Assembly (NCBI GenBank): GCA_902800525.1
Contig: CADCEV010000012.1
Location: 1 to 64,000 of the forward strand
DNA from: an uncultured Bacteroidales bacterium
Lineage (GTDB): Bacteria; Bacteroidota; Bacteroidia; Bacteroidales; Paludibacteraceae
Length of the DNA: 64,000 nt
Direction: 5' to 3'
Of the stretch, positions 5,605-7,662 are shown in pieces (the first letter of the stretch is position 1; each line of letters begins with the position of its first letter). Made by a program: the position numbers and the translations under genes. The notes beneath the pieces are model-generated. The model searched no databases, had not been told where the DNA came from, and saw nothing but the letters and a program-made list of their open reading frames with translations.

Positions 5605-7662
5605 GTGGACTTATTCAGCGAAATAGAAGAACCCGAGCGCGAGGAACTGAAACGCTTGCGCAGGGAATTGGAAGAGGCGAATTACCAGTACTACGTACTG
5701 AACATGCCTACTCTATCCGACCGGGATTTTGACTTCAAAATGCACCGTTTGCAGGAACTGGAAGCACAGTTCCCCGACATGTATGACCCCAAGAGCCCGA
5801 CCCAGCATGTGGGATCCGATTTAGGCAAAAAGGGCTTCGAGACCGTCAGACACAAGTACCCGATGCTCTCGCTGGCGAACACCTATTCGCGTGAGGAGAT
5901 CGAATCGTGGGTGCGTAAACTGCCGGCGAATGTGGAAATCGTTTGCGAACTGAAGTTTGACGGACTTTCCATCAGTCTTTGGTACGAAAACGGAACCCTC
6001 GTTCGGGCGCTCACACGAGGGGATGGTGTGCAGGGCGATGATGTCATTGATAATATTAAAACAATTACCTCTATTCCACGACACGTCGTCGGGACGCCGT
6101 CGAGCTTTGAGATGCGAGGCGAAGTGCTACTGCCATGGGAGCGGTTTGAAGCACTGAACAAAGAGCGTGAGGAGCAGGAAGAGCCGCTTTTTGCGAATCC
6201 ACGCAATGCGGCTTCGGGTACGCTCAAACTGCAGGACCCGAAGGAAGTGGCACGAAGGGGATTAGACGCGTACCTCTATTATATGTTGGGCGAGGATCTG
6301 CCGGGTACAACCCATTTCGAGCGACTGAACACCGCCAAACAATGGGGATTCCATATCTCCGATGCGATCAAAGTGTGCCACAACGTGGATGAGGTGATGG
6401 CGTACATCGCTTATTGGGACACCGAGCGCAAGAACTTGCCCGTTGCCACCGATGGTATCGTTCTTAAAGTCAATAACTTAGCACAACAGGAAGAACTCGG
6501 TTTTACCGCCAAGACACCCCGTTGGGCAATCGCGTATAAGTTCCCCGCGGAGAAACAACTGACGCTCCTCAAAGAGATCACTTACCAAGTGGGCAGAACC
6601 GGTGTTGTGACGCCGGTTGCGAACTTGGAACCGGTACAATTATCCGGCACGATCGTGCAGCGCGCGACCCTTCATAACGAAGATTTCATCCGCTCGCTCG
6701 ACATCCGTCCGGGGGATCATGTGTGGGTTGAGAAAGGCGGTGAAATCATTCCAAAAATAACGGGACGAGAAGAAAGGCCTACCCCCGACCCCTCCCTGAA
6801 AGGAGGGGAGTTGGATTCGGCGCCGGACACCCTTCCCTTTAGGGAGGGGCTTGGGGTAGGCTTCCCCACTGTCTGCCCGGAATGCGGCGCAAAGTTAGTA
6901 AGAGTAGAAGGCGAAGCCGCTTGGCGGTGCCCGAACGAAGCCGGTTGTCCGCCGCAGATAAAAGGCAAAATAGAGCATTTCGTCAGCCGAAAAGCGATGA
7001 ACATTGATGGTTTGGGCGAAGAGACAATCGACCTGCTCTACCAAAAAGGATTGCTACATAACATCGCCGACATATACGACCTGCAACTCGGAGACATCGC
7101 AGCGCAGGAGCGTCTCGGTGAGAAATCCGCGCAGAACATGTTAGCCGGCATTGAGGCATCCAAGAACGTACCATGGGCGCGCGTACTCTTTGCACTCGGT
7201 ATCCGCATGGTAGGAGAGACCACCGCAAAAAAGATCGCTCGCGTCTATAACACCATCGACAGCCTCCAACAGGCGGACGCAGAGCAGTTATGCGCGGTGG
7301 AAGATGTCGGACCGCAGATCGCGGAGAACATCGTCAAGTACTTTGAGGACAGCCGCAACTTGGACATCATAGCCCGTCTCCGCCAAGCCGGCCTGCAATT
7401 CGAAGGCGAAGCAGCAGAAGGACCGCAATCCGACAAATTAGCAGGAATGAGCATTGTGATCAGCGGCACGTTCGCGCATCATTCGCGCGACGAATACAAA
7501 GCCCTCATCGAAGCGCACGGAGGAAAGAACGTCGGCTCGGTCAGCAAAAAGACTTCTTTCATCCTTGCCGGAGAGAACATGGGACCCGAGAAACTGAAGA
7601 AAGCCGAAGCCCTCGGTATCCGGCTAATGACCGAAGATGACTTCCTCGAAATGATTAAATGA
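5605..7662 (+). CDS. ligA: NAD-dependent DNA ligase LigA with in-frame repeat insertion
   Basis: Seals nicks using NAD+. 685 residues, GTG start. Order: Ia domain (Y29, Y30), adenylation domain with K117 in CELKFDG, OB fold, four-cysteine zinc finger (CPECG...CPNEAGC), HhH domain, BRCT (about 600-685, [15 protein letters not shown]...). Between OB fold and zinc finger, about residues 391-420 ([14 protein letters not shown] then [10 protein letters not shown]) are extra relative to the family and are encoded by a complete palindromic element (6779-6863). The insertion keeps frame and lies in a linker, so activity is plausible. No promoter of the consensus type is seen in the short upstream gap; cotranscription with the nuclease gene is possible. 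Confidence 0.97.
6779..6863. repeat. palindromic intragenic element, full-length copy in ligA
   Basis: About 85 bp. The left end gcctacccccgacccctccc is mirrored by the right end agggaggggcttggggtagg(c), with smaller hairpins ccctccctgaaaggaggg and cccttccctttagggagggg inside. It reads through in the ligA frame without a stop. Confidence 0.85.

Follow-up and report, generated by a model that had tools for sequence, protein, structure and literature searches.

A 34-nt palindromic repeat, GCCTACCCCCGACCCCTCCCTGAAAGGAGGGGAG, that lies mostly inside protein-coding genes was found in the window, the whole stretch of 64,000 nt from an uncultured Bacteroidales bacterium (Paludibacteraceae) that was analyzed. 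We consider it, with a probability of about two in three, a REP- or RPE-like non-autonomous palindrome that recently rose in number in certain species of a single Bacteroidales genus and was kept in frame in tolerant loops. Its ends are defined, its copies numerous, its spread patchy, and its placement coding; an in-frame filter and non-conservation with a sister species were likewise observed. An earlier note on this DNA had described one element at seven places; a composite form of the repeat, its patchy distribution across the genus, and the presence of unlike repeats at equivalent loops in other species go beyond it.

Sequence and copies of the repeat

The genome carrying the window is a draft of 2.39 Mb in 33 contigs (92.7% complete) and was scanned with a covariance model of the 34-nt unit (R1). 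The following features were located in the window.

2690..2723, plus strand: 34-nt unit in ruvC (R1 E = 7.6e-7)
2631-3290, minus strand: ruvC ORF (RuvC, PF02075), to which the unit is antisense
5605..7662, plus strand: ligA, NAD-dependent DNA ligase, 685 aa (Pfam)
6777..6810, plus strand: 34-nt unit 1 in ligA, identical to the consensus used (R1 E = 1.3e-10)
6811..6827, plus strand: 17-nt spacer between the two inverted units of ligA (sequence)
6828..6861, minus strand: 34-nt unit 2 in ligA, inverted (R1 E = 7.2e-9)
14335..14413, plus strand: 79-nt composite in an AmpG-like MFS gene, 13688-15076 (direct repeat; PF07690)
62229..62307, plus strand: 79-nt composite in a SpoIID-like gene, 62080-63156 (direct repeat, Pfam, R1)
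63335..63368, minus strand: 34-nt unit in a methyltransferase gene (R1 E = 6.7e-9)
63558..63573, minus strand: different GC palindrome in the methyltransferase gene (partial R1 match)
63919..63952, minus strand: degenerate copy in the methyltransferase gene (R1 E = 3.4, weak)

The ruvC copy is read as TPSLQGGTQGRL close to the C terminus of RuvC. Both ligA units are read through as 13-residue peptides between the OB fold and the zinc finger (the Pfam OB match ends at aa 389 and the ZBD match begins at aa 424). In the methyltransferase, which is of the PG_1098 type (PF22013/PF18096; start 63122, plus strand), the copy at 63335..63368 is read as HPSLEGRDGVRL immediately ahead of LLDLTGG. The AmpG-like composite was matched by R1 over its first 49 nt only (E = 7.2), and the copy at 63919..63952 is probably a 79-nt composite with the middle deleted. 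Membership of 63558 in the 34-nt family was rejected on its partial match at E = 2.25. The single element at seven places described earlier was therefore retained at six, which hold the element or a variant, and it is not of one type, as the 34-nt unit occurs in ruvC, ligA, and at 63335, and the composite in the AmpG-like and SpoIID-like genes. All six places lie in open frames of named genes, in agreement with the claim that the copies are read without a stop.

The commonest form of the unit in the alignment is GCCTACCCCC-NN-CCCYTCCCTNNARGGARGGGAG, with a stem of 9 bp. The scan returned 47 copies in the genome at E <= 7.2e-4, and model positions 1-34 were matched in all 47; in size and number the palindrome falls within the 20-40 bp range of GTAG REPs. 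Within the window, the core CCCTTCCCTTNAGGGARGGG with up to three mismatches gave seven matches at four places, both strands counted, compared to a mean of 0.00 in 100 shuffles, which rules out a chance origin. Rfam gave no matches on the element, and the three gathering-level matches of the window all lie elsewhere, so a known RNA family was dropped as its identity.

The 79-nt composite has both ends in common with the 34-nt unit and another palindrome as its middle, and the AmpG-like and SpoIID-like copies are 96% alike. Partial R1 matches at C2:186709, C9:3258, and C16:28177 suggest three further composite places. The middle part also adjoins other palindrome ends, near 12556 of L102 in the same genome and at the L337 site facing L094 near 9006 in the sister species (G021), as if the repeats were modular and nested. 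The inverted pair in ligA folds better than 197 of 200 shuffles on the plus strand and 198 of 200 on the minus strand (DNA folding z of -2.7 and -2.9), and the whole stretch forms one long predicted hairpin. A lone copy in KsgA folds no better than its own shuffles (z of -0.8 and -1.2).

In the genus scan (E <= 0.01, strict filters), 29 of the 37 genomes, which differ in completeness, carried 1-71 copies and the other eight none; among 24 genomes outside the genus, four had weak matches only. The family thus appears to be recent and patchy in the genus.

Placement in genes and protein loops

By our own count in the genome, 40 of the 47 copies are inside long ORFs. The remaining seven are outside genes, five in ORFs of <100 aa and two, in our judgement, ahead of the true start codon, so that the claim that no copy is intergenic stands within the window and fails genome-wide. 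Coding density was 0.905 over 783 kb, most of it in stretches chosen around copies, and measured against this value 40 of 47 is no departure (P(<=40) = 0.15); therefore, the family neither seeks nor avoids genes. The scan of the genome and its relatives with a covariance model, which had been proposed earlier, accordingly showed copies that are not mostly intergenic. Under the preferred reading, the element would land roughly anywhere, in either orientation, and copies that are in frame, by landing or by trimming, in a tolerant surface loop would be kept and the others purged.

Such in-frame copies would be survivable because four of the six frames of the consensus contain no stop, and a fifth opens in the GCCTC subfamily. 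For the 42 copies with an ORF of >=150 aa, sense frame 2 was used by 14, antisense 1 by 10, antisense 2 by nine, antisense 0 by six, and sense 0 by three, and sense 1, closed in the consensus, by none of the 42. Antisense 1 is also closed in the consensus, and seven of its 10 uses come from the GCCTC subfamily, which is without the TAG. Read in frame, the copies would add peptides, as supposed earlier, here LPSLQGGVGGR, AYPQPLPEGKG, and two further 11-residue ones.

An exact pattern scan of named public genomes gave at least 111 stretches, of which 80 were used, and 19 of 90 copies were dropped as they lay <=600 nt from a contig edge. Most titles of the stretches listed name Paludibacteraceae or other Bacteroidales, and rumen or hindgut is the source of many. 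Among the matches listed, 55 of the 71 usable copies are in ORFs of >=150 aa compared to 86% of random windows, and genic copies are thus somewhat too few (P = 0.04); the deficit has the direction that a purge would give and is small for random landing. One copy among the matches listed uses sense 1, closed in the consensus, and in the record of the isolate Prevotellaceae bacterium HUN156 none of the five copies lay in a gene by the same measure.

Hosts supported by Pfam include LigA, RuvC, KsgA, a UbiA-type prenyltransferase (two copies), MurI (two), GlmS, RecQ, an IspE-like GHMP kinase, HisS, ThrRS, Hsp90, QueA, Dus, UvrD, YicC, FecCD, a Beta-CASP nuclease, and EPSP synthase; host gene names that go beyond the Pfam names are presumptive. 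At L092:9174-10874, domains of EPSP synthase and of a family 2 glycosyltransferase are joined in one ORF, with the palindrome at the junction. The core enzymes among many of these hosts could indicate adaptive inserts, by which essential enzymes would be given varied loops, such as to evade inhibitors from phages or toxins. We regard this as very unlikely, as the hosts look like a mixed set, placement matches coding density, and simple heptad arrays are also among the inserts.

The inserts in KsgA, MurI, and RecQ lie wholly or partly in alignment gaps relative to solved structures. The MurI model, with a mean pLDDT of 83.6, places both inserts, at computed residues of about 92-104 and 154-165, in helix-strand loops, and the KsgA model was too poor to interpret (mean pLDDT 50.6). 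Of 29 KsgA loci from the best 30, this genome's own among them, 20 have a loop of 9 aa; the loop of this genome has 21 aa. From these alignments, the element in KsgA, MurI, and RecQ can be read as an insertion. The ORFs, Pfam matches, and structure gaps together point to in-frame placement in ORFs of functional proteins, as described for RPE and CGTC-tagged repeats.

Comparison with related species

The nearest genome seen is that of the sister species, with 94% identity of the LigA protein and 93.5% of DNA across the aligned 243 kb; it is 63% complete and has six copies. When 56 own places were queried against it, both flanks were present in the examined stretches of the sister genome for 25, equal to 24 sites with ligA counted once. 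For the 34-nt family (E <= 1e-3), 18 sites were comparable by eye: two shared, nine with another repeat, and seven empty or ordinary, and two of the nine are doubtful, since the RecQ site seems to hold an inverted member of this very family and the LigA linker of the sister species failed the repeat test. The remaining six sites (composite or weak matches) comprised one shared, one with another palindrome, and four without. In the window, the sister species has ordinary sequence at the ruvC site, a different palindrome at the AmpG-like site, an ordinary, shorter loop at the SpoIID-like site, and a heptad array at 63335..63368, and it differs at 63919..63952 as well. The comparison of orthologues with and without the element, also proposed earlier, thus showed the residues to be missing in relatives at most sites (KsgA, MurI, and 16 of 18 against the sister species).

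The compared genomes are draft assemblies, several of them incomplete, which might favor an artefact of assembly or binning. This is barely credible, as the copies are internal to contigs, their flanks match the sister species at 78-98%, and the GlmS, MurI, and GlgB positions are filled also in separately named records (L222, L281, and L230).

An element-independent scan of the 243 kb detected 145 non-homologous stretches between matching flanks, 86 of them genic. The reading frame was kept at unequal length in 55 of 66 genic stretches compared to 19 of 59 intergenic ones (P = 7e-9); this count omits 20 equal-length genic stretches, likely ordinary divergence, with which the genic figure is 75 of 86. 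At the 16 genic sites with the element, all length differences were multiples of three, and the net differences ranged from -21 to +45 nt with no constant step. Because the net differences vary, insertion would be either imprecise or trimmed afterwards. Repeats were present in 43 of 75 genic segments here and in 27 of 76 in the sister species, compared to 9% of 400 random segments, all drawn from the own genome. Lying mostly inside non-homologous stretches was observed for nine of 11 GC-rich genic repeats, 10 of 43 AT-rich ones, and 44 of 2,000 random genic segments; therefore, turnover is strongest for GC palindromes.

Both species, with genomes 93.5% identical, carry a repeat in the same loop at 12 in-frame genic sites. 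Such overlap would be expected from patch repair, in which hairpins and short tandem repeats are fragile and breaks are filled, by template switching, with repeat DNA taken from other places, so that one repeat takes the place of another. The variable net lengths, the loss of native codons at the IspE, SpoIID, and RuvC sites, the short and composite forms at one KsgA site, and the failure to detect a target duplication agree with it. On the other hand, filler should have ragged ends, whereas every copy in the genome spans the first to the last model position, and an equal overlap would arise if some 66 tolerant sites in the 243 kb were re-used by chance. We hold patch repair to be unlikely. 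Under the preferred reading of a spreading palindrome, tolerant loops would be re-occupied by whichever repeat family is active in the lineage, because a gene has few of them.

Orthologous loops were compared in the best 30 loci per search, out of 58, 49, and 55 genomes with a match. The LigA linker varies from 19 to 38 residues among the best 30 loci. A strong stem or a 6-9-nt period was found in 20 of the best 30 LigA linkers (13.6% of control segments), in 10 of the best 30 loci at MurI site 1 (10.4%), and in five of 29 from the best 30 at the KsgA site (3.1%). By eye, inserts in one loop are often unrelated and include several GC palindromes, short-period arrays, and composites. KsgA has the 34-nt unit here and the 79-nt composite in G065 between matching flanks, a pattern that is compatible with gene conversion. 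At MurI site 1, an oppositely oriented unit or close form is carried by G079, G070, G022, and G036.

Spreading repeats thus appear to rewrite protein surfaces quickly. That the loops of housekeeping proteins are true exchange sites, at which unrelated repeats such as GC palindromes, composites, or heptad arrays would be actively swapped in for resident ones by a targeted process faster than neighboring codons mutate, and not by chance re-insertion, seems unlikely to us. Short repeats would be a visible source of new core-enzyme residues in one bacterial lineage, and a single loop can be followed over dozens of species at small divergence in its filled, empty, and replaced states. For Rickettsia-type elements, this makes testable whether repeat-derived segments are merely tolerated and at what rate they are gained and lost. 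Annotators should be cautious, as a loop peculiar to one species may here consist of repeat DNA, and alignments of the host proteins contain non-homologous inserts.

Ends, candidate enzymes, and other repeats

Flanks and target-site duplications were examined in 45 of the 47 copies, with two of three near-identical paralogue copies dropped. An A was found at the -1 flank in 38 of the 45, and this together with the uniform ends argues for a defined unit. No target-site duplication was found in these copies, the mean longest direct repeat being 2.76 nt compared to 2.83 nt in 300 shuffles. MITEs are short non-autonomous repeats without genes, and the 34-nt repeat is likewise short, gene-less, and non-autonomous, but differs by the undetected duplication.

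The stem is paired in 99.6% of cells on strand CTCCC...GGGTAGGC and in 91.0% on the other strand, with changes on the former mainly giving G-T pairs. Because the stem is kept there through such pairs, this strand is presumably the one that folds, either as RNA or as single-stranded DNA. The copying step would probably proceed via this folded single strand, for the same reason that G-T pairs keep the stem in nearly every copy. The element strand coincides with the G-rich one at 31 of 47 places and at 20 of 27 with stronger skew (P = 0.01), and clustering by contig gave P = 0.05; a replication-strand bias is suggestive and confounded and was given no weight.

A true REP system would be mobilized by a RAYT-type HUH (Y1) transposase. 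A profile search of 37 genomes detected seven diverged HUH Y1 (RAYT-like) genes in this genome, and across eight aligned rows of this family PDHxH and YxxxNP do not vary; the genes lie at L031:784-1782 and six other places in G000, in frames of about 330-450 aa. At least one HUH gene was found in 10 of 11 genomes with >=10 copies and in 16 of 26 others (P = 0.12). However, RAYT-like gene number is not correlated with copy number (Spearman 0.11, P = 0.51, 37 genomes), G036 has 50 copies and no HUH gene found (73% complete), and G019 has eight HUH matches and no copies. The element was within 450 nt of an HUH match in none of 20 loci, one of which, L388, has only 213 nt downstream, and the nearest ends 484 nt upstream (L385). 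Instead, a CCGAAT..ATTCGG hairpin, possibly the cognate repeat of the HUH genes themselves, is present at the gene 3' end in six of the 20 loci and inside the last codons in L031. GTAG occurs in 16 of 28 aligned copies (TTAG in nine, ATAG in two, TGAG in one) and is followed by two more bases, so it is neither terminal nor conserved as in RAYT-associated REPs. RAYT was therefore not supported as the mobilizer, and such a system is doubtful here; the Pfam search, the profile search of 37 genomes, and the flanks of 20 loci yielded no cognate transposase. Certain TnpA-Y1 subclasses whose C-terminal domain is large are described as not REP-associated (PMC6006769).

Comparable systems are described in two reports. 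Intragenic REPs occur in Opitutus terrae (uvrA and DNA ligase), Rickettsia conorii, and others, with DNA-repair genes frequent among hosts, and recB of two Xanthomonas species carries different REPs at about one site (PMC3733652). The same report groups RPE with CGTC-tagged repeats, many hosts of which are DNA-synthesis, repair, and tRNA-related genes. The 34-nt family resembles these as a small palindrome in frame inside functional genes (PMC3733652), which bears out the earlier view that it behaves like Rickettsia palindromic elements with another sequence. It differs, by their description, in sequence and end motif (CGTC at one end was absent from our alignments), in its Bacteroidales host, in its single 34-nt unit and 79-nt composite, and in being 40/47 intragenic with other repeats in the same loops of relatives. 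With GTAG REPs it shares the 20-40 nt hairpin unit, the inverted dimer (ligA here), and G-T stem pairs (PMC3733652, PMC6006769), and some REPs elsewhere are intragenic (PMC3733652). It differs from them in its end motif, in its position away from HUH genes, and in being mostly intragenic, whereas REPs are mostly intergenic. A search of the open-access literature did not find the 34-nt family, a mostly intragenic placement in Bacteroidales, or a measured turnover of shared loops. In-frame palindromes are already known, and a family that is mainly intragenic and turns over fast at shared sites would be a new form of them.

Other repeats and RNAs were also observed in the window. Heptad arrays (AATTGAY, AATTCAC, and AATGCAC) supply the commonest 14-mers of the sequence examined, and some are genic, for example in a TonB-dependent receptor (28751-31309) and a glycosyltransferase (60641-62062). 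A 50-59-nt module (TTGCATATGTCAAAAAAAAGTAGTACCTTTGCA and similar) occurs on both strands with up to 93% identity and is matched many times elsewhere in the genus; it is a putative promoter by its likeness to Bacteroidetes promoters.

5572-5617, 28904-28962, 45256-45303, 52214-52289, 60581-60653, 61021-61107: heptad arrays
3968-4024, 26138-26201, 26447-26496, 36207-36264, 43744-43802, 59648-59700: 50-59-nt module
755-803, 26346-26396, 37358-37397, 40881-40928: separate repeat family ACGGTATCTCGTCGGTATCTCGTCGGTGTCTCGTGAT

A Bacteroidetes FopS small RNA (RF04319) was matched at 36258-36331 with 76 bits. At 20383-20437, a 27-nt coding repeat in a Lys/Ala/Glu-rich protein is 54 nt longer here than in the sister species.
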